This document shows positions 26,635 to 52,881 of a stretch of DNA of 64,000 bases, in pieces. The number at the start of each line of letters is the position of its first letter. Positions within the stretch are counted from its first letter, which is position 1. The notes beneath the pieces were generated by a model. It was given only the letters and a program-made list of their open reading frames with translations, had not been told where the DNA came from and did no database searches. The position numbers and the translations under genes are program-made. The DNA comes from Pelagimonas sp. (lineage in GTDB: Bacteria; Pseudomonadota; Alphaproteobacteria; Rhodobacterales; Rhodobacteraceae): positions 1-64,000 of the forward strand of contig JAOARQ010000030.1 in NCBI GenBank assembly GCA_025210455.1, read 5' to 3'.

Positions 26635-26702
26635 TCGCTCGGCGTGGCGGGTGTTCGTCCGTCACGCCAATCCTTTGGACCTTTAAACAACAGGAGGCGC
26701 AG

Positions 26703-27251: not shown

Positions 27252-28567
27252 TGGACCCGCTTCTGCTTGGTGGAATCGTAGCAATTGCCACCATTCTGGT
27301 GCTCTTTTCTGGCGTATCCGTGGCAATTGGCCTGTTGATCGTCTCTGCAGGATTCCTTTTGATCTTTGATGGCCCCCGGTCACTGGAGTTGATGCCCGAA
27401 ATTCTGTTTGGCAAGCTTGATAACTTTGCCCTGCTTTCGATCCCGATGTTCATTATCATGGGGGCCTCTATTGCCTCGACCCGAGCCGGGGCTGACCTCT
27501 ACGAAGCCCTTGAACGCTGGCTGACCCGAATTCCCGGGGGGCTGGTGGTTTCCAATCTTGGTGCCTGTGCGCTATTTGCGGCCATGTCCGGCTCTTCGCC
27601 CGCAACCTGCGCCGCAATTGGCAAGATGGGCATTCCCGAGATGCGCAAACGTGGCTATCCTGACGGCGTCGCCGCAGGGTCTATCGCCGCAGGTGGAACG
27701 CTGGGCATCCTGATTCCTCCGTCGGTCACGATGATTGTCTATGGCATTGCCACGGAAACCTCGATTGGTCGCCTGTTTCTGGCAGGTGTGATCCCCGGGC
27801 TGATGCTGGTGGGGCTGTTCATGGTGTGGTCGCTGTACTCGACCTGGAAATCAGGTGACGCAACCCGTCTTGGGTCGGGAAGCTATACCTGGGCTGAGCG
27901 TTTTGAAATCCTGCCCAGGGTTTTGCCCTTCCTCGGTATCATCCTGGGGGTGCTCTACGCCATGTATGGCGGGATTGCGACTCCTTCGGAAACCGCCGCT
28001 GTCGGCGCGTTGCTTTGCTTGCTGATCGCTATGATCATCTACAAGCTGTGGCACCCGCGCGCGATTTGGGTTGTTCTGCGTGACAGCACCAAGGAAAGCG
28101 TGATGATCCTCTTCATCATCGCTGCGGCGGGTGTTTTCTCTTATATGCTCAGTTCACTGTTCATCACCCAATCAATCGCGGAATGGATCGGCACGTTGGA
28201 TGTGAACCGCTGGGTTCTGATGGGCGCGGTAAATGTGTTCCTGCTGATCGCTGGTTTCTTCCTGCCCCCTGTTGCCGTGATCCTGATGGCGGCCCCGATC
28301 CTGCTGCCGATTATCACCACGGCAGGCTTTGATCCGATTTGGTTTGCGGTCGTATTGACGATCAACATGGAAATCGGCCTGATTTCACCTCCGGTTGGTC
28401 TGAACCTCTATGTGATCAATGGCATTGCGCCTGACATCTCGCTGAAAACCATCCTGACAGGATCTCTGCCCTTTGTGGCCTGTATGGTACTGGCAATCAT
28501 CCTGCTTTGCCTGTTTCCGGGTCTCGCAACCTGGTTGCCCAATCTGGTGATGGGAACAGCGGTATGA
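27251..28567 (+). CDS. matM: TRAP transporter large membrane subunit (DctM)
   Basis: 438 residues, about 12 hydrophobic segments, matching the DctM permease subunit. Conserved stretches are LLSIPMFIIMG, AAMSGSSPATCAAIGKMGIPEM, GGTLGILIPPSV and INMEIGLISPPVGLNLYV. It forms the elevator-type transport channel for the acid delivered by DctP. Its stop overlaps the start of the malonyl-CoA decarboxylase gene as ATGA (28564-28567), which ties uptake tightly to breakdown. Confidence 0.92.
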   Translation: MDPLLLGGIVAIATILVLFSGVSVAIGLLIVSAGFLLIFDGPRSLELMPEILFGKLDNFALLSIPMFIIMGASIASTRAGADLYEALERWLTRIPGGLVVSNLGACALFAAMSGSSPATCAAIGKMGIPEMRKRGYPDGVAAGSIAAGGTLGILIPPSVTMIVYGIATETSIGRLFLAGVIPGLMLVGLFMVWSLYSTWKSGDATRLGSGSYTWAERFEILPRVLPFLGIILGVLYAMYGGIATPSETAAVGALLCLLIAMIIYKLWHPRAIWVVLRDSTKESVMILFIIAAAGVFSYMLSSLFITQSIAEWIGTLDVNRWVLMGAVNVFLLIAGFFLPPVAVILMAAPILLPIITTAGFDPIWFAVVLTINMEIGLISPPVGLNLYVINGIAPDISLKTILTGSLPFVACMVLAIILLCLFPGLATWLPNLVMGTAV

Positions 28568-29823
28568 CCCTGCTTGCTGATCTTCTTTCTACGGTCTTTG
28601 AGCGACGGTATCGCCGTGAGACGCCGGAGGTGGCCGCAGATGGCCGCCCGCTGATCGAAATGGCCACTGCCCTTGTGGGATCGGCGGGTGAAACTTCGGG
28701 GCTGGCCTTGGCGCGAGAGATCCTGTCGCGCTATGCCGAACTGGACGACGCGGCCAAGCTTGTGTTCTTTCGAGAGATTGCAACCTCTATGAACCTTGAT
28801 CCAGAGGCCGTGCGCAGCACACTGGACGCCTATGAACGCAGTCCTTCAAAGGTGTCTTACCGCGCCTTTGCCGCCGCTGCAGAACCCACCCGGCAAGAGT
28901 TTGTGCGCCGCCTGAACCGGGTGCCAGGTGCGACGGGTGCTTTGGTCAAGATGCGTTCGGATCTCTTGCGATTGGGCCGGGAAAACCCCGAACTTCAGGC
29001 GCTTGATCTGGATTTCCGCCATCTATTTGCGTCGTGGTTCAATCGGGGGTTTCTTGTGCTGCGTCCGATCAGCTGGGAAAGCCCCGCGCATATTCTGGAC
29101 AAGATCATCACCTATGAAGCTGTCCATGCCATCGACAGTTGGGACGACTTGCGCCGCCGTCTCGAACCTTCCGATCGTCGGTGTTTTGCGTTTTTTCACC
29201 CGTCGATGCCTGATGAACCGCTGATCTTTGTTGAGGTTGCTCTGACCAAGGGAATTCCCGGGTCAGTGCAGGCACTGTTGGCCGAAGACCGCAATGCAAT
29301 GCCAGCGGCAGACGCAGACACCGCAGTGTTTTATTCGATCTCCAATTGTCAGAGCGGTCTGGCTAGCATTTCCTTTGGGAACTCGCTGATCAAGCAGGTT
29401 GCGGCCGACCTGTCTGCCGAGCTTGAAGGGTTGGAAACCTTTGTTACCCTGTCGCCCATTCCAAGTCTGACCACCTGGTTGCAACAGACTGGTCTCTCCT
29501 TGGATGCAGGTGAGCCCGAAAATATGCGCGCATTGGCGGCCCATTATCTATTGAATGCCAAGACCCATGGCGAGCTGCCATTCGATCCTGTTGCGCGGTT
29601 CCATCTGGGCAATGGCGCCATTGTCCATGCGGTGCATGCCGAAGCTGACATTTCCGAAAAGGGCCGGAGCCAATCTGGCGGGGCCATGGTGAACTATCTC
29701 TATGATCTTTCGACTGTTGCTCAAAACCACGAAAATTTCGCCATTACGCGTGAGGTTGCCGCCTCTGCCCAAGTCAAAGCCCTGGCGGATCTGATCGCTC
29801 TCCCTTCAACCGAAGAAAGGTAA
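28564..29823 (+). CDS. matA: Malonyl-CoA decarboxylase
   Basis: 419 residues, one domain of the MCD family (PF05292 type). It converts malonyl-CoA to acetyl-CoA and CO2. Characteristic are a helical N-terminal domain (about 10-120) and a GNAT-like catalytic domain with HAIDSWDDLRRRLEPSDRRCFAFFHP in pieces, ISNCQSGLASISFGNSLIKQ, and LSPIPSLTTWL. The catalytic Ser/His pair is expected in the HPSMP and HLGNGA segments. ATGA-coupled to the upstream TRAP gene and five bases from matB, it completes malonate to acetyl-CoA conversion. Confidence 0.93.
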   Translation: MTLLADLLSTVFERRYRRETPEVAADGRPLIEMATALVGSAGETSGLALAREILSRYAELDDAAKLVFFREIATSMNLDPEAVRSTLDAYERSPSKVSYRAFAAAAEPTRQEFVRRLNRVPGATGALVKMRSDLLRLGRENPELQALDLDFRHLFASWFNRGFLVLRPISWESPAHILDKIITYEAVHAIDSWDDLRRRLEPSDRRCFAFFHPSMPDEPLIFVEVALTKGIPGSVQALLAEDRNAMPAADADTAVFYSISNCQSGLASISFGNSLIKQVAADLSAELEGLETFVTLSPIPSLTTWLQQTGLSLDAGEPENMRALAAHYLLNAKTHGELPFDPVARFHLGNGAIVHAVHAEADISEKGRSQSGGAMVNYLYDLSTVAQNHENFAITREVAASAQVKALADLIALPSTEER

Positions 29824-32402: not shown

Positions 32403-33353
32403 TCAGCTTTCAGATCCAGCGCGGAAATGGTCGGCCATTGTGTTAGCGGCGCGGGTCACATCCTCTGGGTTGTCGTAGAAATCGAACTGAGTCACCCCTT
32501 CCAGCCATTGCGCGGTGGCGTCGCCAGCAAACCCATTCAGAAAGGTTTTTACCCCCTGCGGAATCGCGGCGCTTTCTGAATGAACAATGGCAAGCGGTTT
32601 GTTCAGACGCTGGGGATTGTCAGCCGGATGATAGGTCAGCCAGCCTTCCCAACCTGCGTTATTCCATTTGTCGTCATACTCTGGGATGCCGCCGCGATCC
32701 GCTTCGTAGTAATATCCGCCAATGGGCATCAGCACACCCTCTGCGCCTTCAGGGCCTGCCGCCGGAATGATCTGGCCACCAGCGGCATCTGCTGCCTGCG
32801 AAACCTCAATCAGGCCGGCAACCCCTTCGGCGCCACCATAGACAGCTTCAACGATTTCGCTGTTTTGCAGCCAGGGGGCGACCAGGCCAATTCGGTTAAC
32901 AAGATCGTTTCCAGCCACAGCATCCACCATATATCCAGCCGAGGCACAGATCCCCAAGCCATTGATCTGATTGCCATCTACCTCGGGAAGTGTGGCAATA
33001 AATTCAAAGGCTGCCTTGATATCAGAGGTCTTGGCAGCGGGGTCTTCTTTGAAACGCACAGATTGGGGCAGATCACCGGATTTTCCCCAGCCGCGAAAAT
33101 CAAAGGTAAAAGCGGCAAAGCCCCGTTCTGCCATTTCTCTGGCATAGTTCGCAGGCATTTGTTCTTGGACCGAAGTCCATGCACCTGTCACCACCACGGT
33201 CGGAAGCGGGCTGTTGTCATGTCCTTCAGGAAGATAAAGCGTGCCCGATAGCGAAACGCCTTCGTTTTCGAAACTGACGATGCGGGTTTCAATGTCGGCC
33301 AGTGCGGTGGTCGCCATCAAAGTGGCGGTGGTAGCGAGTGTTGGCAATTTCAT
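32403..33353 (-). CDS. Exported alpha/beta hydrolase
   Basis: 316 residues. A signal peptide (MKLPTLATTATLMATTALA) precedes an alpha/beta-hydrolase fold of the dienelactone-hydrolase/YcjY type. The nucleophile region reads GLGICASAGYM, where the usual GxSxG is replaced by G-I-C-A-S-A-G, so the nucleophile could be the serine or cysteine of this loop. The FDFRGWGKSG segment and a late His (MADHF) fit the fold. Substrate unknown. The ATG at 33353 has GGAGAG upstream; the longer frame adds 17 unlikely residues. It is divergent from luxI, with about 290 bp between. Confidence 0.82.
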   Translation of the reverse strand: MKLPTLATTATLMATTALADIETRIVSFENEGVSLSGTLYLPEGHDNSPLPTVVVTGAWTSVQEQMPANYAREMAERGFAAFTFDFRGWGKSGDLPQSVRFKEDPAAKTSDIKAAFEFIATLPEVDGNQINGLGICASAGYMVDAVAGNDLVNRIGLVAPWLQNSEIVEAVYGGAEGVAGLIEVSQAADAAGGQIIPAAGPEGAEGVLMPIGGYYYEADRGGIPEYDDKWNNAGWEGWLTYHPADNPQRLNKPLAIVHSESAAIPQGVKTFLNGFAGDATAQWLEGVTQFDFYDNPEDVTRAANTMADHFRAGSES

Positions 33354-33640
33354 GGGTCTCTCCATCAATGGACCATCAGGTTTGTGATGCAGCAAAGATG
33401 ACATTCAGCGAACCATTTGAGAGGCGCGAAACCAGTCAATCACTATGCGATTCTTGTCATAGCTCCCAAAGACCACACTGTATTTGGAGCAAGATCTTAA
33501 TGGGCCTTAATTCGGTGTTTCGGAATAGATAGGGATTTTGATCATTGAAACAAAAATAGAACAAAATCCGATTTAGAGTAATGTTCTGTCAAGAGTCTCC
33601 GATATAAGTGTTTGATATCAGTAAAATAACGGTGATGTTT
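33354..33640. other. Intergenic region upstream of luxI
   Basis: About 290 bp between the divergent hydrolase gene and luxI. It is AT-rich from 33530 on, consistent with a promoter for luxI. I looked for a lux-box-like 20-bp palindrome and saw none that is convincing. Confidence 0.5.
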
Positions 33641-34270
33641 ATGATTCGTTTCGTAACGGCAGAAAACCTAAGTACACGCCCGATGCTCCGGGCGACTATG
33701 TTCCGAGATCGTGCAGATCAATTCTTCCATAGATTGCGCTGGGATATCTCAATCAACGAAAGCGGCGAAGAGATTGATCAATATGATGCGCTGGGCCCAA
33801 TCTATGTCATGGCGGAAACTGCGCTTGGCCGTCATGAGGGATCTATGCGCTTTTTGCCAACGCTAGGACAGACGATGGTCAATGACTACTTTCAAGATTT
33901 GACGGGCCAGCGCATCGAAAGCCGGTTCATTTGGGAATGTACCCGATTTTGTCTGGGGCCACATGCAACCCGCCAAACCGCGCCGAAACTGTTGGCAGCG
34001 GGTGGCAAGTTGATGGAAGAACGCGGCGTGCGCAATTTCGTCGGCGTCTTTGACGAACATACCGAACGGGTTTATCGCATCGTTGGGGCTAAGCCGGAGC
34101 TATTGGGTAAAAAAGATACCCCCTATGGCGTCATCGGTGTGGGCCTCTGGGAATTCGACGATGAAACCTATGATCAGCTGCTCAGGAAGGCCGGTATTTC
34201 CGCTGAAATGATGGATATCTTTTATCGTGAAAGCACCGGTACCCCAGATCAGGTTGCGCTATCCGCTTAG
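33641..34270 (+). CDS. LuxI-type acyl-homoserine-lactone synthase
   Basis: 209 residues. It makes an AHL signal from SAM and an acyl carrier. All invariant LuxI residues appear in order: R24, F28, W34 (FRDRADQFFHRLRW), D46 and D49, R70 (MRFLPT), E99 and R102 (WECTRF). The ATG at 33641 gives the usual N-terminus (MIRFVTAENL) with GGTGA upstream; a GTG at 33608 is in frame but less likely. No luxR gene lies next to it, so the receptor is elsewhere or the synthase is solo. It converges with the RpiR gene, their ends overlapping by four bases. Acyl chain length cannot be read. Confidence 0.93.
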   Translation: MIRFVTAENLSTRPMLRATMFRDRADQFFHRLRWDISINESGEEIDQYDALGPIYVMAETALGRHEGSMRFLPTLGQTMVNDYFQDLTGQRIESRFIWECTRFCLGPHATRQTAPKLLAAGGKLMEERGVRNFVGVFDEHTERVYRIVGAKPELLGKKDTPYGVIGVGLWEFDDETYDQLLRKAGISAEMMDIFYRESTGTPDQVALSA

Positions 34271-35139
34271 GCCCCCCGGAAAATGTTGGTTTCCCCAATG
34301 ACTTCCTCCAGCGCCCGGATGCGATCCGCGCTGGAAGACCGGCTTTGGATTTCGGCGACCAAGGCTTCTACCAGAAAGTTCAGCGCCAGTGTTGAATCCC
34401 AGCTGGAGGGGGCTTCGACCATCGCGCGGAAACAGTGGTTGGCGCATTGCTCAATGGGTGATCCCCACTGATCGGTGAACAGCACAATGCTACCACCCTG
34501 CGCCACCACCTGCCGTGCCAACCGTTCCAGTTGTTTTTCATAGCGGCGGATATCAAACACCACCAAAGTCGATTCCTGCCCCATATCCAACAAAGATTGG
34601 GGCCAGACGCTGGGGGAGGAATCCAGCAAATTCACTCCCGGTCTAATGATCTGTAGATGGTTAAAGAAATAATGCGCATTGGATCGGGTGATGCGCCCGC
34701 CCAGCAGATATATATTGCGATCAAGATCCGACAAAAGCGCCGCCGCCGCATCAAATTCAGCCAGATCCAAACGATTCAGTGTCTCATTTATGTTACCTGA
34801 CATCGCGCGTGCAAAGCGGCTGACAATGTGATCAGCGCTATCTGCATGGTCTGACGTTTCCAGTTTCGCCAGCGGTTGCTTGACGCGCGCGGCCACCTCT
34901 TCACGCATGGCATCCTGAAAATCCGAAAACCCCTCATAGCCCAGTTTTCGCGCCAAACGTACCACAGAAGCTGTTGAAACATCAGAATTTTCCGCAAGCT
35001 TTGTGATCGACTGTAGCCCTGCAACAAGTGAATCGTTCAATAAAACTGCCGCCAGCCTTCGTTCGGCAGCGGTAAAGCTGGCCTGATTTTCCTTGAGCTG
35101 GTCCCGCACAAGTGCGGTGTTCTTTGGCAGTTCGGACAT
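34267..35139 (-). CDS. RpiR/MurR-family regulator with SIS domain
   Basis: 290 residues. An N-terminal helix-turn-helix of the RpiR type (AERRLAAVLLND, SITKLAENSDVSTASVVRLARKLGYEGFSDFQ) is followed by a sugar-isomerase (SIS) domain (about 120-260, NIYLLGGRITRSNAHYF). Such proteins usually sense a phosphorylated sugar or related small molecule. It is divergent from the amidohydrolase-TRAP operon, about 95 bp apart, and is the obvious candidate for its regulator. The ligand is unknown; sensing of a gamma-glutamyl intermediate would be a new role and is only a guess. Confidence 0.9.
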   Translation of the reverse strand: MSELPKNTALVRDQLKENQASFTAAERRLAAVLLNDSLVAGLQSITKLAENSDVSTASVVRLARKLGYEGFSDFQDAMREEVAARVKQPLAKLETSDHADSADHIVSRFARAMSGNINETLNRLDLAEFDAAAALLSDLDRNIYLLGGRITRSNAHYFFNHLQIIRPGVNLLDSSPSVWPQSLLDMGQESTLVVFDIRRYEKQLERLARQVVAQGGSIVLFTDQWGSPIEQCANHCFRAMVEAPSSWDSTLALNFLVEALVAEIQSRSSSADRIRALEEVIGETNIFRGA

Positions 35140-35234
35140 GAAAATTTCCTGACTCAGAGTTAGGAGCGAAAAAATATTGACATAGAGGTGCGCTCTGTAG
35201 TGATCTTTACATCAACTTGTCTGGGGAACAAGAT

Positions 35235-35999
35235 ATGGAAGATCTACACTGGCCCTCGGTGGCATCATTCACTTTATCGGGGCAATCGAACATTGTCCTG
35301 ATTTGTGAACATGCTTCGGCTGATATTCCGCCCGATCTGCAGGATCTGGGGTTGGATCAGGTGTCGCGTCATTCTCATGCGGCATGGGATATCGGTGCGT
35401 TAGAGGTGGCGAAACGTCTAAGCAGCCAGTTGGATGCGCCTTTGGTGGCGGGGCAGGTTTCCCGGCTTGTCTATGACTGCAATCGCCCGCTTGACGCCCC
35501 AGACTGCATCCCGGCCAAAAGCGAAGTGCATGAGATACCGGGCAATCGCGCGTTGGATGCGCAGGCGCGGCAAATCCGCTTTGACCGGGTGCACAGCCCC
35601 TTTCATGCGGAAGTTTCGCGGGTGATTGAAGCGCAGGAAGCGCGCTGTCAAAATCCGCTTTGCATTGTGACGATCCACAGTTTCACCCCTGTCTTTCATG
35701 GTAAAATCCGTGAAATCGAACTGGGGCTTCTGTTTCATGAAAACGTTGCGCTGACCAAGGCGACCCTTGCTCAGGCGCAGGCCAAAGGCCAAATGAAAAC
35801 CGCGATCAATGAGCCTTATTCAGCGAGGGACGGGGTGACTTACAGCCTGCAAAAACACGCCGAAGCGCGCGGGCTGCATTCGCTGATGATCGAGATCCGC
35901 AATGACCTGATCGACACCCCAGCCAAGGCGGAGGGTGTCGCGGATCATCTGGCAGAGCTGCTGACCAAAGCGGTCGCCACACTGGGGGAAAACGCATGA
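35235..35999 (+). CDS. N-formylglutamate amidohydrolase-family hydrolase
   Basis: 254 residues. The family (HutG-like deformylases, aspartoacylase-type zinc fold) hydrolyses N-acyl bonds on glutamate. Family marks are CEHASADIPP (about 28-37), the HSHAAWDIGALEVAKRL segment, SRLVYDCNR and TIHSFTPVFHG. It opens the operon with a TRAP transporter (ATGA overlap with the next gene at 35996-35999) and is close to a glutamine-synthetase-like ligase, not to hut genes. So it more likely releases glutamate from a gamma-glutamyl or N-acyl intermediate than acts in histidine breakdown. That role is inferred. Confidence 0.8.
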   Translation: MEDLHWPSVASFTLSGQSNIVLICEHASADIPPDLQDLGLDQVSRHSHAAWDIGALEVAKRLSSQLDAPLVAGQVSRLVYDCNRPLDAPDCIPAKSEVHEIPGNRALDAQARQIRFDRVHSPFHAEVSRVIEAQEARCQNPLCIVTIHSFTPVFHGKIREIELGLLFHENVALTKATLAQAQAKGQMKTAINEPYSARDGVTYSLQKHAEARGLHSLMIEIRNDLIDTPAKAEGVADHLAELLTKAVATLGENA

Positions 36000-36574
36000 G
36001 CCTGTTGCGCAGATATATCGAATTTGTCGATGGTCTGAACCGCCGCATCGGACGCGTGACCATGTACGGGATCTTTGTGATCATGGCGATTTTGCTGTGG
36101 TCGTCGATTTCAAAAACCTTCTTCAATCCTTCGCTTTGGACACTGGAAATGGCGCAGTTTGCCATGGTGGCCTACTATATCTTGGGTGGTCCCTATTCGA
36201 TCCAGATGGGATCGAATGTGCGGATGGATCTGTTTTACGGTGAATGGAGCACGCGTCGCAAAGCAGCGGTCGACAGCATTACGGTGCTGTTTTTGATGTT
36301 TTATCTGGGCGTGCTGTTTTACGGCGGGCTAAGCTCTACCGCCTATTCGCTGGGGTATTGGGGCCAGGATCCGATTGCCTTTTTCACCGGGCTTTTGACC
36401 GGACAAGAGCAGATCGGCCGCCTTGAGCGTTCGCCCACCGCCTGGCGGCCTTACATTTGGCCGATCAAAGCTGTGATGCTGCTCGGTGTGTTTTTGATGC
36501 TACTTCAGGCAGTTTCGGAACTGTTCAAAGACATTCTGCGCCTTCGCGGAGAGGAGATCGCCGATGTCCTATGA
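35996..36574 (+). CDS. TRAP transporter small membrane subunit (DctQ)
   Basis: 192 residues with four hydrophobic segments (about 20-42, 55-75, 93-115, 155-178), the DctQ pattern. It overlaps the amidohydrolase gene by four bases (ATGA) and the large subunit gene by 11 bases, so the three are co-translated. A longer loop between the third and fourth segments (about 120-150, LTGQEQIGRLERSPTAWRPY) is a difference from the malonate-type subunit in this window. Substrate unknown. Confidence 0.9.
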   Translation: MSLLRRYIEFVDGLNRRIGRVTMYGIFVIMAILLWSSISKTFFNPSLWTLEMAQFAMVAYYILGGPYSIQMGSNVRMDLFYGEWSTRRKAAVDSITVLFLMFYLGVLFYGGLSSTAYSLGYWGQDPIAFFTGLLTGQEQIGRLERSPTAWRPYIWPIKAVMLLGVFLMLLQAVSELFKDILRLRGEEIADVL

Positions 36575-37889
36575 AATGATCGCCATTTTTATGTTTGCCA
36601 CCATGATGGCAATGCTGATGACAGGTCAGCGCGTGTTTGGTGCCATTGGTCTGGTCGCAGTTGTTGCGGCGCTGGTCCTATGGGGGGATCGCGGCGGCTA
36701 TGACATTGCGTTTTCCAGCGCGATGAAGCTGATGAAATGGTATCCGCTGTTGACGCTGCCCATGTTCATTTTCATGGGGTACGTGCTGTCGGAATCAAAG
36801 ATTGCCGACGATTTGTATAAAATGTTCCACGTCTGGATGGGCGGTGTGCAAGGCGGTTTGGCCATCGGAACAATTGGCCTGATGGTGTTGATTTCAGCGA
36901 TGAATGGCCTGTCAGTCGCGGGCATGGCGATTGGTGCCACGATTGCTTTGCCAGAGCTTCTGAAACGCAACTACGACAAGAGAATGGTCACCGGCGTTAT
37001 TCAGGCGGGCTCTAGCCTTGGGATTTTGGTTCCACCATCGGTTGTGTTGGTTCTCTATGCGATGATCGCCCGTCAACCCGTTGGGCAGCTTTGGCTGGCC
37101 GGGGTGCTTCCGGGGCTGATGATGGCGGCGATGTTCATTATTTACATCGTCATCCGCTGTCGCCTGAACCCCGATCTTGGCCCGGTTCTGCCCAAAGAAG
37201 AGCGCGACCTGCCCATGTCGGAAAAGCTGGCGCTGTTGCGGGCCGGTCTGCTACCGATCGTGATTTTTGCCACCATGATGGTGCCTTTTGTGAATGGCTG
37301 GACATCGCTGGTGGAAAGTTCAGCGATTGGCGCAATCACCGCTTTTGCTGCGGCTGTTCTGAAAGGGCGGATGACCCGCGAGGTCTTTGAGACATCGGTC
37401 AAACAGACGCTGGGGATTTCCTGCATGTTCATGTGGATTATCCTTGCAGCGCTTGCCTTTGGCGCGGTGTTTGATGGTCTGGGCGCAGTCAAGGCGATTG
37501 AAAGCCTCTTCACCGAAAAGCTGGGCCTAAGCCCCTGGATGATCCTGATTTTGATGCAGCTCAGTTTTATCATCATGGGGACATTTCTGGACGATACTGC
37601 CATGCTGGTGATCGTCGCGCCGCTTTATGTTCCGCTGGTTCAGGCGCTGGGCTTTGATCTGATCTGGTACGGGGTTCTCTACACGATCACGACCCAGATT
37701 GCCTATATGACGCCGCCTTTCGGCTACAACCTGTTTCTCATGCGCGCCATGGCCCCCAAGGAAATCACGCTGAAAGACATTTATGGTTCTATCCTGCCTT
37801 TCGTTTTGGTGATGGTCTTTGCCCTGACGCTGGTCATGGCCTTTCCCGGCATCGCCACATGGCTACCGGATTACGTGTACGGAAAATGA
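36564..37889 (+). CDS. TRAP transporter large membrane subunit (DctM)
   Basis: 441 residues, about 12 membrane segments. DctM signatures: LLTLPMFIFMGYVLSESKIADDLY, ISAMNGLSVAGMAIGATIALPELL, QAGSSLGILVPPSVVLVLYAMIARQPV and MTPPFGYNLFLM near the C-terminus. It belongs to the branch with the SxLGxLVPPS loop common in solute carriers for 2-oxo acids and other organic acids, but the substrate cannot be assigned. The DctP receptor gene follows 52 bases later. Confidence 0.92.
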   Translation: MSYEMIAIFMFATMMAMLMTGQRVFGAIGLVAVVAALVLWGDRGGYDIAFSSAMKLMKWYPLLTLPMFIFMGYVLSESKIADDLYKMFHVWMGGVQGGLAIGTIGLMVLISAMNGLSVAGMAIGATIALPELLKRNYDKRMVTGVIQAGSSLGILVPPSVVLVLYAMIARQPVGQLWLAGVLPGLMMAAMFIIYIVIRCRLNPDLGPVLPKEERDLPMSEKLALLRAGLLPIVIFATMMVPFVNGWTSLVESSAIGAITAFAAAVLKGRMTREVFETSVKQTLGISCMFMWIILAALAFGAVFDGLGAVKAIESLFTEKLGLSPWMILILMQLSFIIMGTFLDDTAMLVIVAPLYVPLVQALGFDLIWYGVLYTITTQIAYMTPPFGYNLFLMRAMAPKEITLKDIYGSILPFVLVMVFALTLVMAFPGIATWLPDYVYGK

Positions 37890-37941
37890 CGCAACAAGAC
37901 CCGCACAACCGGGCGTAACTGAAACCAACTAGGAGAGTGTT

Positions 37942-38976
37942 ATGACGACAAGACGTAAGTTTCTGGCCGGAGCCGGTGTGGGCGCATTGGCTGCCCCGCT
38001 GGCAACCCCGGCGATTGCAAATGGTCAGATCAAATGGCGCATGCAGACCTATGCGGGTGCTGCGCTGGCGGAACATGTGGTAAAACCCGCGATAGATATG
38101 TTCAACAAGATCGCAGGCGACCGCATGCAGATCGAACTGTTTTATGCGGATCAGCTGGTGCCAACAGGTGAGCTGTTTCAGGCCATGCAGCGCGGCACCA
38201 TCGACGCTGTACAGTCAGACGACGATTCAATGGCATCACCCACTGATGTCACGGTGTTTGGTGGCTATTTCCCATTTGCATCGCGCTATTCTCTGGATGT
38301 GCCGGTGCTGTTTAACCAGTACGGTCTGAATGAAATCTGGGATGCCGAGTACTCCGCTGTGGGCGTCAAGCACATCAGTGCAGGCGCCTGGGATCCTTGC
38401 CATTTCGCCACCAAAGACCCGATCCGCTCGCTGGCGGATCTCAAGGGCAAGCGCGTCTTTACCTTCCCGACAGCGGGCCGTTTCCTAAGCCAGTTTGGCG
38501 TGGTGCCTGTCACCCTGCCATGGGAAGACATCGAAGTTGCGGTTCAGACAGGTGAACTGGACGGTATCGCCTGGTCAGGCATCACCGAAGATTACACCGT
38601 GGGTTGGGCCGATGTGACCAACTATTTCCTGACCAACAATATCTCGGGCGCATGGGCCGGGTCGTTCTTTGCCAATATGGGCAGCTGGGAAGGCCTGCCC
38701 GAAGATCTGCAAACGCTGTTCCGCGTATGCTGTGACCAATCACATTACTACCGCCAGTGGTGGTACTGGGGTGGCGAAGCCAACCTGCGTGTGAATGGCA
38801 CCAAGATGCAGCTGACGTCGATTCCGGATGCGGAATGGGCACAGGTAGAAGAAGCTGCGCTGAAATTCTGGGATGAAATCGCCTCTGAAAGCCCGACCAA
38901 GGCCAAGGTTGTCGAGATCTTCAAGAAATACAACGCCGATATGCAAAAAGCAGGCCGTCCGTATCGTTACGGCTAA
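37942..38976 (+). CDS. TRAP transporter substrate-binding protein (DctP), Tat-exported
   Basis: 344 residues. A twin-arginine signal (TTRRKFLAGAGVGALAAPLATPAIA) precedes a TakP-like DctP domain: WRMQTYAGAALAEHVV, LVPTGELFQAMQRGTIDAVQS, LADLKGKRVFTFPTAGRFL with the ligand-binding arginine, and LDGIAWSG. Tat export, unlike the Sec signal on the malonate receptor, is common in this subfamily. AGGAGAG lies just upstream of the ATG. The ligand is unknown; its operon suggests a compound handled by gamma-glutamylation. Confidence 0.9.
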   Translation: MTTRRKFLAGAGVGALAAPLATPAIANGQIKWRMQTYAGAALAEHVVKPAIDMFNKIAGDRMQIELFYADQLVPTGELFQAMQRGTIDAVQSDDDSMASPTDVTVFGGYFPFASRYSLDVPVLFNQYGLNEIWDAEYSAVGVKHISAGAWDPCHFATKDPIRSLADLKGKRVFTFPTAGRFLSQFGVVPVTLPWEDIEVAVQTGELDGIAWSGITEDYTVGWADVTNYFLTNNISGAWAGSFFANMGSWEGLPEDLQTLFRVCCDQSHYYRQWWYWGGEANLRVNGTKMQLTSIPDAEWAQVEEAALKFWDEIASESPTKAKVVEIFKKYNADMQKAGRPYRYG

Positions 38977-38983
38977 ACCATCT

Positions 38984-39017
38984 GATCTGGCCCGTCATCG
39001 GATGGGCCAGATCTTTG
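38984..39017 (+). terminator. Hairpin between TRAP receptor and ligase genes
   Basis: Perfect 10-bp stem GATCTGGCCC (38984-38993) with GGGCCAGATC (39004-39013), ten-base loop, then TTTGC. It may partly terminate the transcript or protect the highly expressed receptor mRNA, setting lower expression of the downstream enzymes. Confidence 0.7.
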
Positions 39018-39060
39018 CAAGGAAATCCCGCGCACGGGCGCAAAATCAAAAGGTCGCAAA

Positions 39061-40413
39061 ATGCTGACATTCGAGGATCTGAAATCGCAGGTGGCTGCGG
39101 GGGATGTGGACACGGTTCTTGTGTGTCTGGTGGATATGCAGGGGCGTTTGATGGGCAAGCGCTTTCATGCGGGGCATTTTGTGGCCGGGGCCTATGAGGA
39201 AACCCACTGCTGCAACTATCTGCTGGCGACGGATCTGATGATGGGCACTCCGGATGGCTATGCCGCCACCTCTTGGGAAGGGGGTTATGGCGATTATGTC
39301 ATGAAGCCGGATCTGAGCACATTGCGCCCTGTGCCCTGGTTGGATGGCACGGTGATGGTGCTGTGCGATGTTCTGGATCACCACACCCACGAAGAGGTGC
39401 CCCATTCGCCCCGTGCCATGCTGAAAAAGCAGGTGGCCCGTCTGGAGGCCATGGGCTTTGATCCCAAAATGGCGACCGAGCTGGAGTTCTTTTTGTTCGA
39501 AAAGAGCTTTGATGAAATCCGCAAATCTGGCTTTCGCGATCTGGCACCGATTTCAGGGTATAATGAAGACTATCACATCCTTCAGACATCGCGCGAAGAA
39601 CATGTGATGCGCCCTGTGCGCAACCACCTGTGGAACGCAGGCATTCCGGTCGAGAACTCAAAAGGCGAGGCTGAGACTGGTCAGGAAGAGCTGAACATAA
39701 AATATGCCAGCGCAATGGATACGGCCGCCTATCACACCATCGCAAAACACGCGGTGAAGGAAATCGCCTGGCAACAGGGGCACGCGGTGACGTTTTTGCC
39801 AAAATGGCATCACGAAAAGGTGGGATCATCGTCACATGTGCATCAGTCGCTGTGGAAAGACGGGCAGAATGCGTTTTTCGATGCGGGTGACGCGCTGGGC
39901 ATGTCTGAGCTGATGAAAAACTATATGGCGGGCCTGCTGAAATATGCGCCGGATTACACCTATTTCATGGCACCTTACATCAACTCGTACAAACGCTTTA
40001 TGAAGGGCACCTTTGCGCCAACGCGGATTATCTGGTCGGTGGACAATCGGACTGCGGGCTATCGTCTGTGTGGGGATGGCACAAAAGCCGTGCGCGTGGA
40101 ATGCCGTGTCCCCGGATCAGACATGAACCCCTATCTGGCGATGGCTGCAATGCTAGCTGCGGGCATCGCAGGGATCGAAGAAGGGCTAGAGCTGCAGGCG
40201 CCAACGCAGGGTGATGTATATCAGGGCGACACCGGGCTGATCCCCGGCAATCTGAAGGATGCGGGTGAGGCATTGAAGGCCTCGTCGATGTTGCGCGCTG
40301 CGCTGGGGGATGTCGTAGTGGACCACTATGTCCGCGCGGCGGAGGTGGAAATCGAAGAATTTGAACGCGTGGTCACTGACTGGGAAGTTGCCCGGGGGTT
40401 TGAACTGGCGTGA
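39061..40413 (+). CDS. Glutamine-synthetase-like gamma-glutamyl ligase
   Basis: 450 residues, glutamine-synthetase fold of the PuuA/GlnA-like branch that joins glutamate to amines rather than ammonia. Visible motifs: N-terminal beta-grasp region (LVCLVDMQGRLMGKR), metal site TELEFFLFE (about 139-147), GSSSHVHQSLW, the flexible loop NRTAGYRL and the C-terminal RVECRVPGSDMNPYLA. No adenylylation-site tyrosine region typical of housekeeping GlnA was seen. It is followed by an aldehyde dehydrogenase and an iron alcohol dehydrogenase. So the amine substrate may carry an alcohol group, as in the known gamma-glutamylethanolamide synthetases. Substrate is inferred only. Confidence 0.88.
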   Translation: MLTFEDLKSQVAAGDVDTVLVCLVDMQGRLMGKRFHAGHFVAGAYEETHCCNYLLATDLMMGTPDGYAATSWEGGYGDYVMKPDLSTLRPVPWLDGTVMVLCDVLDHHTHEEVPHSPRAMLKKQVARLEAMGFDPKMATELEFFLFEKSFDEIRKSGFRDLAPISGYNEDYHILQTSREEHVMRPVRNHLWNAGIPVENSKGEAETGQEELNIKYASAMDTAAYHTIAKHAVKEIAWQQGHAVTFLPKWHHEKVGSSSHVHQSLWKDGQNAFFDAGDALGMSELMKNYMAGLLKYAPDYTYFMAPYINSYKRFMKGTFAPTRIIWSVDNRTAGYRLCGDGTKAVRVECRVPGSDMNPYLAMAAMLAAGIAGIEEGLELQAPTQGDVYQGDTGLIPGNLKDAGEALKASSMLRAALGDVVVDHYVRAAEVEIEEFERVVTDWEVARGFELA

Positions 40414-40527
40414 TCGGAAAGGGCTTGTTTCCTTACCAGCTGGGTATCCAGTGGCGGGGACGGCGTTTAGGTATTTTTGGACCAGAGAAGCGGGCAGGGT
40501 GCCCGTATTCAGAAGTGGAGCATTGGC

Positions 40528-41910
40528 ATGGGCCAGGTGTTGAAATGTGTTTCGCCGATTGATGGATCGGTGTTTGCAGAGCGGGAAGTGCTAACAAAGG
40601 AGGCGGCCTTTGGTGCTGCTGAAAAAGCGCGCGCGGCGCAGAAGGACTGGGCTGCGCTTCCGCTGTCCGAGCGGGCTGAGCTGGTGATGGCTGGTGTGGC
40701 GGCTGTTGGGGCGATGAACGATGAAATTGTGCCTGAGCTGGCGCATATGATGGGCCGTCCGGTGCGGTATGGCGGTGAATTTGGTGGCTTTAACGAGCGT
40801 GCAAGCCATATGGCCAGCATCGCCGAAGAGGCGCTGGCAGAGATCCAGGTGGGTGAAGACGAGACGTTCAAACGCTATATCAAACGTATCCCCCATGGCG
40901 TTGTCTTTGTCGTCGCCCCCTGGAACTATCCCTATATGACAGCGATTAACACCGTGGCCCCTGCCCTGATTGCGGGCAACACAGTGGTGCTGAAACATGC
41001 CACACAGACATTGTTGGTCGGGGAACGCATGGCCAAAGCGTTTCATGCGGCGGGTGTGCCTGAGGATGTTTTTCAGAATGTCTTTCTGTCGCATGAGGTG
41101 ACCAATGACTTGATTTCAGGGAATGCCTTTGATTTCGTGAACTTCACTGGCTCAGTTGGCGGCGGCCAAGCGATGGAGCGGGCGGCTGCGGGTACCTTTA
41201 CGGGGGTTGGGACTGAGCTGGGCGGTAAAGATCCGGGCTATGTCATGGAAGATGCGGATCTGGAGGCTGCAGTGGACACGTTGATTGACGGGGCCATGTT
41301 CAATTCCGGGCAGTGCTGCTGTGGTATTGAACGGATTTATGTGCACGAAAGTCTTTTCGACGTGTTTGTTGAAAAGGCTGCGGCGATTGTGAATGGCTAC
41401 AAGCTGGGCAATCCGTTGGAGGAAAGCACCACGCTGGGCCCAATGGCCAATGTGCGCTTTGCCCAAGAGGTGCGGGCGCAGATTGACGAAGCGGTTGCAG
41501 CTGGCGCCACCGCGCATATAGATCTCTTTGCCGAGGACGATGGCGGCGCCTATGTGACGCCGCAGATTCTGACCAATGTCACCCATGACATGCGCGTCAT
41601 GCGCGATGAAAGCTTTGGCCCGGTGGTTGGCATCATGAAGGTTTCTTCGGATGAGGAAGCGATTTCTTTGATGAACGACAGTGAATTTGGTTTGACGGCG
41701 TCGCTTTGGACCAAGGATCTGGACCGCGCCGCGTGGGTTGGTGATCAGATTGAAACCGGAACTGTCTTTATGAACCGTGCTGACTATCTTGATCCGGGCC
41801 TGTGCTGGACGGGGTGCAAAAACACCGGGCGCGGTGGCGGGCTTTCGGTGATTGGCTATCACAATCTGACCCGGCCCAAATCCTATCATTTGCGCAAAGT
41901 GACAGCCTGA
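40528..41910 (+). CDS. NAD(P)-dependent aldehyde dehydrogenase
   Basis: 460 residues. ALDH superfamily enzyme that oxidises an aldehyde to an acid. The general base is in TELGGKDPGYV and the catalytic cysteine in FNSGQCCCG; NFTGSVGGG is the coenzyme-binding turn, and PWNYPYM and ESFGPVVGIM are conserved. The ATG at 40528 has GGAG upstream; the longer frame adds 17 residues without family match. In this cluster it would oxidise a gamma-glutamyl aldehyde made by the adjacent alcohol dehydrogenase. It is shorter than PuuC-type enzymes, closer to the NAD-dependent succinate-semialdehyde group. Confidence 0.92.
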   Translation: MGQVLKCVSPIDGSVFAEREVLTKEAAFGAAEKARAAQKDWAALPLSERAELVMAGVAAVGAMNDEIVPELAHMMGRPVRYGGEFGGFNERASHMASIAEEALAEIQVGEDETFKRYIKRIPHGVVFVVAPWNYPYMTAINTVAPALIAGNTVVLKHATQTLLVGERMAKAFHAAGVPEDVFQNVFLSHEVTNDLISGNAFDFVNFTGSVGGGQAMERAAAGTFTGVGTELGGKDPGYVMEDADLEAAVDTLIDGAMFNSGQCCCGIERIYVHESLFDVFVEKAAAIVNGYKLGNPLEESTTLGPMANVRFAQEVRAQIDEAVAAGATAHIDLFAEDDGGAYVTPQILTNVTHDMRVMRDESFGPVVGIMKVSSDEEAISLMNDSEFGLTASLWTKDLDRAAWVGDQIETGTVFMNRADYLDPGLCWTGCKNTGRGGGLSVIGYHNLTRPKSYHLRKVTA

Positions 41911-42001
41911 GCCCTTTCGTCTTGCCAGAAAAACACCGGGGGAATTGGCCATAGGCCAAGGGCACAGTGCCCCGCCCCGCATTCATCATAGGAAACAACG
42001 C

Positions 42002-43147
42002 ATGACACTTGTTGGAAACTGGTCTTACCCGACAGCGGTAAAATTCGGCGCGGGCCGGATTAAGGAACTGGCCGAGGCCTGTGCACAGGCTGGAATGACG
42101 CGCCCATTGCTGGTGACGGATAAGGGCCTCGCAGATCTGCCGATCACCAAGCAGACGCTGGATATCATGGAGGCCGCGGGCCTTGGGCGTGGCATGTTCT
42201 CAGAGGTTGATCCGAACCCCTCTGAGATTAATCTGCACGCTGGTGTTGCGGCTTACAAAGCTGGGGATCATGATGGTGTGATTGCCTTTGGTGGCGGATC
42301 GGGCCTTGATCTGGGGAAGATGGTCGCCTTTTACGCCGGTCAGACCCGCCCGATCTGGGATTTTGAAGATATCGGGGATTGGTGGACGCGTGCGGATGCC
42401 GATGCCATCGCGCCGATCATTGCAGTGCCAACCACCGCGGGAACGGGTTCAGAAGTTGGGCGGGCATCTGTACTGACCAATTCTGAAACCCACGAAAAGA
42501 AGATCATTTTCCACCCCAAAGTGCTGCCAGCCGTTGTGATCTGTGATCCGGAGCTGACTGTTGGCATGCCTAAATTCATCACGGCTGGAACGGGGCTTGA
42601 TGCTTTTGCGCATTGCGTTGAGGCGTTTTCCAGCCCGCATTATCACCCGATGTCGCAGGGGATTGCGCTGGAAGGGATGCGTCTGGTGATCGACAACCTG
42701 CCGCGCGCCTATGCTGATGGCACTGATATTGAAGCGCGGGCGCATATGATGAGCGCCGCCGCCATGGGGGCCACTGCTTTCCAGAAGGGGCTGGGGGCGA
42801 TCCATGCGATGTCGCATCCGATTGGTGCGATCTTCAACACACATCACGGCACCACTAATGCGGTTTGCATGCCGGCTGTGCTGGAGTTCAACGCCAGCGC
42901 TATTGCAGATCGCTTTGATCGCGCGGCTGGCTATCTTGGGATCGAAGGTGGTTTCAAAGGCTTCCAAAGCTTTGTGCAGGAATTCAACGACAGCTTTGCC
43001 ATTCCGCACAAACTGTCAGACATGGGCGTGTCATCGGATAGGCTGGATGATCTGGTGGCAGGCGCGATCAAAGATCCATCCTGCGGCGGTAATCCGATTG
43101 AGCTGACCGAATCCAACCTGCGCCAGTTGTTCCAGGCCTCGATCTAA
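42002..43147 (+). CDS. Iron-containing alcohol dehydrogenase (group III)
   Basis: 381 residues. NAD(P)-dependent metal alcohol dehydrogenase. The nucleotide motif GGGSGLD (about 96-102) is present, and the iron ligands fit D/H...H...H: GTGLDAFAHCVEA, then HAMSHPIGAIFNTHHG. AGGA lies eight bases before the ATG at 42002. It ends the cluster; a hairpin GGGA..GCCCC/GGGGC..TCCC (43155-43179) follows. In context it would convert an alcohol intermediate to the aldehyde used by the preceding ALDH. Confidence 0.93.
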   Translation: MTLVGNWSYPTAVKFGAGRIKELAEACAQAGMTRPLLVTDKGLADLPITKQTLDIMEAAGLGRGMFSEVDPNPSEINLHAGVAAYKAGDHDGVIAFGGGSGLDLGKMVAFYAGQTRPIWDFEDIGDWWTRADADAIAPIIAVPTTAGTGSEVGRASVLTNSETHEKKIIFHPKVLPAVVICDPELTVGMPKFITAGTGLDAFAHCVEAFSSPHYHPMSQGIALEGMRLVIDNLPRAYADGTDIEARAHMMSAAAMGATAFQKGLGAIHAMSHPIGAIFNTHHGTTNAVCMPAVLEFNASAIADRFDRAAGYLGIEGGFKGFQSFVQEFNDSFAIPHKLSDMGVSSDRLDDLVAGAIKDPSCGGNPIELTESNLRQLFQASI

Positions 43148-43228: not shown

Positions 43229-43981
43229 TTGGGTTTTCTTCGGATATTTTTGGTTTCTCTGTGTCTCGCAAGCGGGGCTTTTGCGGATTCGGTGACGGTG
43301 TTTGCTGCTGCCAGTCTGAAAACAGCACTTGATGAGGTGGCCGAGACTTTTGAACATGAGACCGGCCATAAGGTGGTGCTGTCTTTTGCCGGATCGTCGG
43401 CTTTGGCGCGGCAAATCCAATATGGGGCACCGGCAAATCTGTTTATTTCCGCCAATTCAAACTGGATGGATCACATCGAAGATCAGCAGCTGACGGTGCC
43501 AGAAAGCCGCGTGGCGTTGCTGTCAAATCAGCTGGTTCTGATTGGTCACGGGCAGGCCAGTGATGCGAATGTGACGTTTGAAACCCCTTTGAGACAGATG
43601 CTGGGCCAAGGGCGTCTGGCCATGGCAATGGTGCAATCCGTGCCTGCCGGGATCTATGGGCGCGAGGCCCTGAAGGGGCTTTCGCTGTGGGGACAAGTAG
43701 CTGATCAGGTGGCGCAAACCGATAATGTGCGGGCTGCGCTGGCCTTGGTTGCCTTGGGCGAGGCCCCATTGGGTATTGTCTATGCCTCTGACGCGCTGGC
43801 CGAGCCGCGCGTAGAGATTCTGGGTCGTTTTCCTGCACAAAGCCATAGCCCTATCCGCTATCCTGCCGCCCTGATTGCCTCTGGGGCGACACCTGCGGCG
43901 CAGGAATTGCTGGACTTTCTGCAAAGCGACGATGCCAGAGAGATCTTCCTGAACCATGGTTTTCAGGACCCTCAGAAATGA
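43229..43981 (+). CDS. modA: Molybdate-binding protein ModA
   Basis: 250 residues. Periplasmic receptor of the ModABC molybdate importer. The signal peptide (LRIFLVSLCLASGAFA) is followed by VTVFAAASLKTALDEVA, FAGSSALARQIQYGAPANLFISAN (oxyanion-binding serines) and VPAGIYGREAL. The start is a TTG at 43229 with GAGG six bases upstream; the ATG at 43218 is out of frame. The ModA and ModB genes share an ATGA. No ModE gene is nearby. Confidence 0.94.
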   Translation: MGFLRIFLVSLCLASGAFADSVTVFAAASLKTALDEVAETFEHETGHKVVLSFAGSSALARQIQYGAPANLFISANSNWMDHIEDQQLTVPESRVALLSNQLVLIGHGQASDANVTFETPLRQMLGQGRLAMAMVQSVPAGIYGREALKGLSLWGQVADQVAQTDNVRAALALVALGEAPLGIVYASDALAEPRVEILGRFPAQSHSPIRYPAALIASGATPAAQELLDFLQSDDAREIFLNHGFQDPQK

Positions 43982-44673
43982 CCGAGTGGTTGTCGCCCGA
44001 AGAATGGCAGGCGGTGGGGTTGTCACTGCGGGTCTCCTTTTGGGCGACACTGGTTGCGCTGCCCTTGGGCCTGTTTACCGCCTATGTTCTGGCCCGGTGG
44101 GAGTTTCCGGGCAAGCAGCTGCTGAATGGTCTGGTGCATTTGCCGTTGATCCTGCCGCCGGTGGTGACGGGATACTTGCTGTTGCTGACGCTGGGCACGC
44201 GGGCGCCGCTGGGCTCAGCGCTGCAGGCAATTGGCATTACCTTTGCTTTTCGCTGGACGGGCGCGGCACTGGCGGCGGGGACCATGGGCTTTCCCTTGAT
44301 GGTGCGTGCGATGCGCTTGTCAATCGAAGCGGTTGATCCAAAGCTTGAACAGGCTGCCGCGACATTGGGGGCCTCGCGCTTTTGGGTGTTTGCCACTGTC
44401 ACCTTGCCGCTGATCCTGCCCGGTGTTCTGGCGGGCGCGGTGCTGTGTTTCGCCAAAGCCATGGGGGAATTTGGCGCGACCATTACCTTTGTGTCCAATA
44501 TTCCCGGCCAGACACAGACGCTGCCTTCAGCGATCTATGCCTTTTTGCAGATCCCGGGCGGAGAGGGTTCAGCCCTGCGGTTGGTTGTGGTGTCGGTTGT
44601 GGTGGCGATGTCGGCGCTGTTGCTGTCTGAATGGCTGGCGCGGCGCGCGGTGAAACGGGTGGGCAGCGCATGA
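43978..44673 (+). CDS. modB: Molybdate ABC permease ModB
   Basis: 231 residues, five membrane segments, of the binding-protein-dependent permease family. The cytoplasmic EAA loop is visible as EQAAATLGASRFWVFATVTLPLILPG. Conserved are the N-terminal WLSPEEWQAVGLSLRVSFWAT and GEFGATITFVSNIPGQTQTLP. Both ends are ATGA-coupled, to modA upstream and modC downstream, so the three subunits are made in fixed ratio. Confidence 0.95.
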   Translation: MTEWLSPEEWQAVGLSLRVSFWATLVALPLGLFTAYVLARWEFPGKQLLNGLVHLPLILPPVVTGYLLLLTLGTRAPLGSALQAIGITFAFRWTGAALAAGTMGFPLMVRAMRLSIEAVDPKLEQAAATLGASRFWVFATVTLPLILPGVLAGAVLCFAKAMGEFGATITFVSNIPGQTQTLPSAIYAFLQIPGGEGSALRLVVVSVVVAMSALLLSEWLARRAVKRVGSA

Positions 44674-45752
44674 GCCTGAAAGTCTCGCTTCGCCATGCTC
44701 ACCCCGGATTTGCGCTGGACGTCAGATTTCACACGCCGCCCGGTCTGACGGTGCTGTTTGGGCGTTCCGGGTCGGGCAAGACGACAATTGTGAATGCAGT
44801 GGCGGGGCTGACCCGCCCGGATTTTGCGCAGATACAGGTCAATAACCGTGTGCTATGTGATACGGATCAACGGATCTGCCTGCCCACCCATCGCCGCAGG
44901 CTGGGCTATGTCTTTCAGGAATCACGGCTTTTTCCGCATCTGACCGTGCGACGCAATTTGCGCTATGGGCGGTTCTTTGCGCCAAACTCTGCGCCAAAGG
45001 CTGATGAGGATCGCATCATTGATCTGCTGGGGATCGGCGGGCTGCTGGATCGCCGCCCAGGTGATCTGTCGGGTGGGGAAAAGCAGCGGGTGGCATTGGG
45101 GCGGGCGCTGCTGGCCTCGCCCGAGTTGATTTTGGCGGATGAACCGTTGGCAGCGCTGGATGAGGCGCGCAAAGCTGAAATTCTGCCCTATTTTGAAACC
45201 CTGCGCGATGAGGCGCAGATTCCCATTCTCTACGTGACGCATTCCCCGGCAGAAGTCGCCCGTCTGGCCACCACAGTGGTGGTGCTGCAAGAGGGCAAAG
45301 TGCTGCGTCAGGGCAGCGCCGCCGAGGTGCTGAGCGATCCTGCAGTGACTCCGGCCGGTGTGCGTGGCGCGGGCGCGGTGCTTGAGGCGCAGGTTGCCCG
45401 TCACCACGAGGACGGGCTGACCGAATTGAGCGCAGGCGGCATTGCGATTTTTTTGCCTAAGATCCGCAAGGCGACTGGCCAGAAGGTGCGGATCCGTATC
45501 GCGGCGCAGGATGTGATGCTGGCGCGGGTGCCGCCCGTGGGGCTTTCGGCGCTGAACATCCTGCCCGGTAGGATTGAAACTATCCGCGCAGGCGATGGGC
45601 CGGGCGCGATGGTATCGCTGAACACAAAGGCAGGCCGGGTGCTGATCCGGGTCACAGGCAGATCGCTGAAGGCGCTTGATCTGCATACGGGCGACACCGC
45701 CTATGCGGTGATCAAAACCGTTTCTGTCGCGCCGCAGGATGTGGGCGGTTAA
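44670..45752 (+). CDS. modC: Molybdate ABC ATP-binding protein ModC
   Basis: 360 residues. Walker A FGRSGSGKTT (about 30-39), LSGGEKQRVALGRALLASPE signature and Walker B LILADEPLAALDE. The C-terminal TOBE/MOP-type molybdate-binding domain (about 290-355) is present. The start at 44670 gives an ATGA overlap with modB. It ends five bases before the converging MORN-repeat gene. Confidence 0.95.
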   Translation: MSLKVSLRHAHPGFALDVRFHTPPGLTVLFGRSGSGKTTIVNAVAGLTRPDFAQIQVNNRVLCDTDQRICLPTHRRRLGYVFQESRLFPHLTVRRNLRYGRFFAPNSAPKADEDRIIDLLGIGGLLDRRPGDLSGGEKQRVALGRALLASPELILADEPLAALDEARKAEILPYFETLRDEAQIPILYVTHSPAEVARLATTVVVLQEGKVLRQGSAAEVLSDPAVTPAGVRGAGAVLEAQVARHHEDGLTELSAGGIAIFLPKIRKATGQKVRIRIAAQDVMLARVPPVGLSALNILPGRIETIRAGDGPGAMVSLNTKAGRVLIRVTGRSLKALDLHTGDTAYAVIKTVSVAPQDVGG

Positions 45753-45757
45753 ATGCC

Positions 45758-47203
45758 CTAGTTGCCAGAAGCCTCTGGCAATTCGGGCGCGGCTGTTTCT
45801 TCGGCTGGGGCGGGGCGGCTGGCCATGGCACCACTGATCCACTGGCCCGTCAGCACTTCGCCACTGGCGTAGGTCATTGTGCCTTCGCCCTGCCGTTTGC
45901 CGTCCACAAATTGCCCGGTGTAGACATCCCCATTTGCATAGGTCGCAATGCCTTCACCGTTGATTTCGCCGTTTTCCCAGGCACCATCATAGCGAAACCC
46001 GGTGGGCATCACCATCATGCCTTCGCCGTGGCGCTGACCGTCGCGAAACTGCCCCTCATAGACCGAGCCATCCACATAGGTGAACGTGCCCTTGCCGTGG
46101 CGCTGATCGTTTGACCAGTCACCCTCGTAGCGGCCCCCATCAGCAAAAACCATCACACCATAGCCATTGTAACGGGCATTGCTGAAGGCCCCGGTGTAGA
46201 TCAGCCCATTGGGATAGCCTGCTTCACCACGCCCTTCGATGACACCTTCGACCCAATCGCCATTATAGGTCGCACCACTGGGATAGGTGATCTGCCCCTT
46301 GCCATGGGCAAGCCCATCTTTAAACGCGCCTTCATAGACCGAGCCATCCGGATAAGTCAGCTGCCCTTGCCCTTCGATCTGACCTGAAACCCAGTTGCCC
46401 GCGTAAACATAACCATCTTTGCCGGAAAACGTGCCCTGACCATGGCGCTGATCATTGTCGAAATTGCCTTCGTAGATATCGCCGTTTGTATAGGTCAGCT
46501 TGCCCTGACCTTCGCGGCGGCCATCTTTCAACTGGCCTTCGTAGATATCGCCATTTGGCTGGGTGAGCATGCCGCGCCCATCCATCTGACCTTCGCGCCA
46601 GCTGCCTTCATAGCTCATGCCATCGGGCATCGTCATTTTGCCGATCCCGTCCATTTCACCATTGGCAACACGGCCTACATACAAGGTGCCATCCGGCGCG
46701 GTGATCTTGCCGCTGCCTTCCATCACGCCATTGACCCACTGCCCATCAAAGACATAGCCCTTGGGCGTCGTCATCACCCCTTTGCCATGATAAAGCGCAT
46801 TGCGGAATGATCCCTCATAGCGGGTGCCATCCGCGTAGATCCAAACCCCTTCACCGGTGATCTTGCCATCCAGCCAGGTGCCTTCATAGATCCCGCCATC
46901 GGCATAGACGATCTTGCCCACACCTTCCGGTTTCCCCTTGGCGAACTGCCCCTGATAGACCGATCCATTGGGAAACCGCGCCACACCTCTGCCGCGGATT
47001 TCGCCCTGAAACCACGCACCGTTATATTCATAGCCATTGGGCAGGCGATAGACACCGATGCCATGTTGCAGCCCATCCAGAAACTCACCTTCATAGACGC
47101 CACCGTCGTCATATTGTTTGGTGGTTACCTCGGTCTGCTGTGCAAACCCCGGTGTGGCCAGAGCAGCAAAGGTAACAAGGGTGGCGATGCCCGTGAATTT
47201 CAT
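45758..47203 (-). CDS. Exported 19-repeat MORN protein
   Basis: 481 residues. A signal peptide (MKFTGIATLVTFAALATPGFA, cut near 22) is followed by eighteen full and one partial 23-residue MORN units (for example DGGVYEGEFLDGLQHGIGVY, residues about 32-51). The units repeat the pattern G-x-x-Y-x-G-x-W/F-x-x-G-x-x-H/E-G-x-G. A low-complexity, Ala/Pro/Glu-rich C-terminal tail follows (about 462-481). MORN sheets in bacteria usually bind lipids or act as scaffolds or in wall or surface patterning. It is divergent from nadE, and its function is unknown. Confidence 0.9.
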   Translation of the reverse strand: MKFTGIATLVTFAALATPGFAQQTEVTTKQYDDGGVYEGEFLDGLQHGIGVYRLPNGYEYNGAWFQGEIRGRGVARFPNGSVYQGQFAKGKPEGVGKIVYADGGIYEGTWLDGKITGEGVWIYADGTRYEGSFRNALYHGKGVMTTPKGYVFDGQWVNGVMEGSGKITAPDGTLYVGRVANGEMDGIGKMTMPDGMSYEGSWREGQMDGRGMLTQPNGDIYEGQLKDGRREGQGKLTYTNGDIYEGNFDNDQRHGQGTFSGKDGYVYAGNWVSGQIEGQGQLTYPDGSVYEGAFKDGLAHGKGQITYPSGATYNGDWVEGVIEGRGEAGYPNGLIYTGAFSNARYNGYGVMVFADGGRYEGDWSNDQRHGKGTFTYVDGSVYEGQFRDGQRHGEGMMVMPTGFRYDGAWENGEINGEGIATYANGDVYTGQFVDGKRQGEGTMTYASGEVLTGQWISGAMASRPAPAEETAAPELPEASGN

Positions 47204-47348
47204 AGGTAAGTTGTCCCGTTCCCGAAGGGTGTGATGCGGCTGAAATCTAGTGCAGCGGCAGTGCAGGGGCAATCTCTTTTGCCGGGATGCTTTCCCTTTG
47301 GCGCGCATCGGCTTATGTCAGGGGCAGACGACAGGAAAGAGATAGGCA

Positions 47349-52861: not shown

Positions 52862-52881
52862 TTCAAACCGGGGATAGATGC

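Follow-up and report, generated by a model that had tools for sequence, protein, structure and literature searches.

Which compound is imported and degraded by the products of a compact gene block at positions 35235-43147 of a Pelagimonas genome segment (the window, a stretch of 64,000 nt)? The original prediction read this block, which combines a TRAP transporter with a glutamine synthetase (GS)-like ligase, two dehydrogenases and a hydrolase, as a gamma-glutamyl pathway for an amine or amino alcohol of unknown identity.

Gene order and published counterpart

Analysis of the open reading frames and Pfam domains across the 64,000-nt window recovered all eight genes named in that prediction, in the order claimed:

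34267..35139, minus strand: RpiR-family regulator, counterpart of MED193_10021 (Pfam HTH_6 and SIS)
35235..35999, plus strand: FGase-family hydrolase, predicted gamma-glutamylglycine amidohydrolase (GGAH; PF05013, E 4e-41)
35996..36574, plus strand: EtoV, TRAP small permease (DctQ; PF04290)
36564..37889, plus strand: EtoW, TRAP large permease (DctM; PF06808)
37942..38976, plus strand: EtoX, predicted TRAP ethanolamine-binding protein (DctP; Tat-type 'TRRKFL' start; 91% identical to MED193 EtoX)
39061..40413, plus strand: predicted ethanolamine gamma-glutamylase (ETAGA), GS-like (PF00120)
40528..41910, ATG start, plus strand: ALDH, predicted to convert gamma-glutamylacetaldehyde to gamma-glutamylglycine (GAADDH; PF00171)
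42002..43147, ATG start, plus strand: iron-containing ADH, predicted gamma-glutamylethanolamide dehydrogenase (GETADH; PF00465/PF25137)

The proposed overlaps of ATGA or longer among the first three genes were found between the FGase and DctQ genes (4 bases, ATGA) and between the DctQ and DctM genes (11 bases), and the RpiR gene is not involved; from DctM onward, the genes are separated by 52 to 114 bases. The placement of RpiR within the block likewise holds only in part, as the gene is adjacent but divergent from the operon and lies beyond its start, outside 35235-43147, with 95 bases between the RpiR and FGase genes.

An identical arrangement of these eight genes, orientation included, forms the eto operon (MED193_10021-10056) of Phaeobacter (Roseobacter) sp. 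MED193, described as RpiR, GGAH, EtoV, EtoW, EtoX, ETAGA, GAADDH and GETADH (Westermann et al. 2023, PMC10132767), five proteins of which were induced on phosphorylethanolamine (PMC10132767). The MED193 contig was recovered in our genome scan as locus L015 and served as the reference for identities. Alignment of the window proteins with this locus gave 91% for DctP, 84% each for the ligase and ALDH, 85% for Fe-ADH, 66% for DctM (gapped alignment) and 64% for DctQ. The FGase (45%) and RpiR (39%) are far less like their MED193 counterparts than the other parts, which is a point against an eto identity, and MED193 also carries another palindrome type after a shared TTGACA. Overall, we consider it almost certain that the block is the known eto operon, through which ethanolamine is taken up and degraded by way of gamma-glutamylation.

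Pathway and substrate are already published, and the system is not new. The view that the substrate is unknown is overturned by the published MED193 operon of identical gene order, whose EtoX binds ethanolamine, and the combination of a TRAP importer with an FGase-family hydrolase, regarded at the outset as unrecognised, already occurs there. In turn, the proposed sequence of TRAP import, gamma-glutamyl ligation, oxidation of the alcohol and then of the aldehyde, and FGase-like release of glutamate agrees with the published ethanolamine pathway (PMC10132767, PMC6529630, PMC9397018). The available part of one account cites a 2015 precedent from C. salexigens and A. tumefaciens C58 (PMC10132767), and in that of another the C. 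salexigens pathway is described as an in-silico prediction (PMC6529630). Proteins from these two organisms are 84% (EtoX, 4uab), 74% (ligase, 5dm3) and 45% (hydrolase, Atu2144/2odf) identical to those of the window.

Binding protein, ligase and accompanying enzymes

A sequence search among solved structures returned 4uab as the best match of the window DctP (E 2e-191; next match 1e-18), which we take to be the ethanolamine-bound Csal_0678 of Chromohalobacter salexigens. The mature part of the window protein is 84% identical to 4uab, and with 91% identity to MED193_10041 and 84% to 4uab/Csal_0678, the window EtoX falls within the ethanolamine-binding clade. The usual position of the carboxylate-binding Arg is occupied by Phe173, as it is by Phe in 4uab; a DctP paralogue in the same genome (L082) keeps the Arg. 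Carboxylates are the ligands of most TRAP binding proteins, and Csal_0678, in which the usual Arg is absent, was reported to bind ethanolamine (PMC4646407). The MED193 EtoX binds ethanolamine with a Kd of 7.9 uM and did not bind PE, PC, G1P or G3P (PMC10132767).

In the alignment of the ligase, Phe318 replaces the catalytic Glu327 of true glutamine synthetases, and this loss of the ammonia-site Glu favours a putative amine substrate. Conservation is likewise lacking at the D50 site, in a region where the alignment is uncertain. The ligase is 74% identical to 5dm3, presumably also from C. salexigens, and missed the cut-off of every NCBIfam GS model by a wide margin. An ordinary ammonia-type GlnA was rejected on 251 bits versus a cut-off of 429 together with Phe318 in place of Glu327. 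The PuuABCD putrescine pathway likewise proceeds through gamma-glutamylation, oxidation and hydrolysis; there, however, the amine end is oxidised and a PuuD-type hydrolase is used. A putrescine-type pathway was rejected for the window, the gamma-glutamylputrescine synthetase model scoring 197 bits versus a cut-off of 650.

A similar ligase is found in Streptomyces coelicolor, where, according to the available part of the published account, the GlnA4 pathway combines a GS-like gamma-glutamylethanolamide synthetase with two predicted dehydrogenases and a hydrolase of the FGase family (PMC6529630). As in the window ligase, Phe replaces Glu327 in GlnA4 (F331 for E327), an assayed gamma-glutamylethanolamide synthetase in which the ammonium-site D50 is lost and which has been shown to form gamma-glutamylethanolamide in Streptomyces (PMC6529630). 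The S. coelicolor system differs in its regulator, EpuRI, and a TRAP importer is absent from the description in the available part of that account (PMC6529630).

The remaining enzymes carry their expected motifs, with the catalytic Cys motif SGQCC (260-264) and Glu230 conserved in the ALDH, and the metal-ligand pattern D200, H204, H272 and H282 of the Fe-ADH kept by 97% or more of 72 sequences. The FGase is 45% identical to Atu2144 (PDB 2odf); its assignment as the N-formylglutamate deformylase HutG was rejected, as it reached 27 bits versus the hutG equivalog cut-off of 279. In the available parts of the published pathway accounts, the dehydrogenase and hydrolase steps stand as predictions (PMC10132767, PMC6529630).

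Conservation among relatives and a predicted operator

For comparison across relatives, 80 loci were picked by closest EtoX similarity, of which 69 had enough flanking sequence on both sides. The full eight-gene order and orientation was intact in 63 of these 69, so the gene neighbourhood is conserved far beyond chance, although the loci were selected on EtoX similarity and the fraction thus describes how closely the genes are linked to EtoX rather than how common the operon is in the group. Separation of the genes in relatives had been named in the original prediction as grounds against it; the check did not refute the prediction. The RpiR gene is divergent from the operon in 63/69 loci as well. 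In a family sample of 198 genomes scanned for close EtoX relatives, 107 carried one, and at most related loci examined EtoX lies inside the same operon.

The EtoX identities in the family form two groups, at about 71-95% and about 61-67%. The second class (about 64% identical) is accompanied by a complete operon in 6/7 fetched loci (L095-L100; EtoX near position 9000), in which the ligase, ALDH and ADH retain 68-89% identity. In most second-class EtoX proteins, AGQDPCN replaces GAWDPCH, and a Tyr stands at the former Arg position. This second EtoX class in otherwise matching operons is one of two small points that look new, the other being a predicted RpiR operator.

The window RpiR shows 39% identity to the MED193 copy, compared with 73-74% to the copies of five other relatives (L016, L041, L055, L056, L065). 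Upstream of the FGase gene, two elements were located:

35177..35182, plus strand: TTGACA, -35-like element (sequence motif)
35196..35211, plus strand: predicted RpiR operator TGTAGTGATCTTTACA over the -10 region (palindrome, 13 bases after TTGACA)

The pattern TGTARTGATNNTTACA occurs a single time in the 4.5-Mb genome and a looser form has a chance expectation of 0.01 in the window, with the motif derived from the same sequences in which occurrences were counted. The arrangement of TTGACA, 13 bases and the palindrome is present in 5/5 relatives with an RpiR at least 70% identical (the five named above), and, apart from the window's own, the combination of TTGACA and palindrome was absent from all other fetched loci. 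Loci with an RpiR of about 50% identity carry TGTA-N8-TACA palindromes that differ in composition. In MED193-type loci (about 40%), the same TTGACA is in most cases directly followed by a TGGAAA/TTTCCA-like or TGAAGAA/TTCA-like palindrome. As the palindrome type covaries with the RpiR subtype across relatives, these few sequences suggest that the palindrome at 35196-35211 is the operator of the window RpiR. An inverted repeat of 9 bases, containing a single mismatch, starts at 35147.

Several neighbouring genes were noted in addition. A LuxI-like autoinducer synthase gene (PF00765; 33608-34270) is convergent with RpiR and lies beside a hydrolase gene (32403-33404, minus strand), a possible lactonase weakly similar to UilS, an AHL lactonase, while modABC molybdate transporter genes (43229-45752) directly follow the operon. 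All 80 related loci lack both the LuxI-like gene and modA, and for this reason the LuxI-like and molybdate genes are not counted as part of the eto unit. Further along, 45758-47308 (minus strand) encodes a 516-residue protein consisting largely of MORN repeats (PF02493), and at 26631-29823 a malonyl-CoA decarboxylase gene follows a further pair of TRAP permease genes, a set that may be a cluster for malonate uptake and use.

Alternative readings, proposed route and product fate

Two other explanations of the block were weighed. An ammonia-assimilating glutamine synthetase could stand with unrelated dehydrogenases beside an organic-acid TRAP importer, with no gamma-glutamyl pathway at all; the ligase does score against glutamine synthetase models, and carboxylates are what most TRAP binding proteins take. 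However, all NCBIfam GS models were widely missed, a separate GlnA-like protein elsewhere in the genome (L089) has intact Glu327 ('PGFEAP') and Asp50 motifs, the carboxylate-binding Arg is absent from the DctP, and the gene set is conserved as one unit. This explanation is already largely refuted and we assign it next to no probability.

Closer to the published pathway, the same chemistry might serve a different or wider range of small amino alcohols, for example 1-amino-2-propanol or 2-amino-1-propanol, with a product other than glycine. The ligase and dehydrogenases could conceivably tolerate a methyl group, and the related operons with a distinct EtoX (about 64% identical) are changed around the presumed binding-site region. 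Against this, the identities of the window EtoX to the MED193 protein (91%) and 4uab (84%) place it in the class for which ethanolamine binding has been measured, and we regard this reading as very unlikely. That the range of the operon extends to other small amino alcohols, and that the two EtoX classes mark a substrate difference, seems improbable, if somewhat less so.

For the ethanolamine pathway, each step in the Pelagimonas genome is predicted from sequence and gene order. The Tat-exported EtoX would capture ethanolamine outside the cytoplasm for import by the EtoVW permease, and the GS-like ligase would combine it with glutamate and ATP to give gamma-glutamylethanolamide. Oxidation to the aldehyde by the iron ADH and on to gamma-glutamylglycine by the ALDH would be followed by hydrolysis through the FGase-family enzyme, yielding glycine and glutamate, the latter being recycled. 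The divergent RpiR probably represses the operon from the palindrome over its promoter.

Glycine from the operon could enter glycine cleavage, since the genome contains gcvP twice (window 54489-57332; the other copy on contig C26) and gcvT in the window (52855-54003); the product thus appears usable, with no shared regulation claimed. EutB (PF06751) was not found in the genome, an assembly estimated to be 99% complete, while the E. coli positive control matched; the classical eut pathway therefore appears absent, and a eut-type ethanolamine ammonia-lyase elsewhere in the genome was rejected.

Ethanolamine from membrane lipids is a marine source of nitrogen and carbon, and etoX was reported to be widely expressed in the sea (PMC10132767). 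The amino-alcohol reading, if true, would mean that the known pathway is not confined to ethanolamine. The window itself adds one more genome with an eto operon, and its usable addition is the prediction of an RpiR operator.
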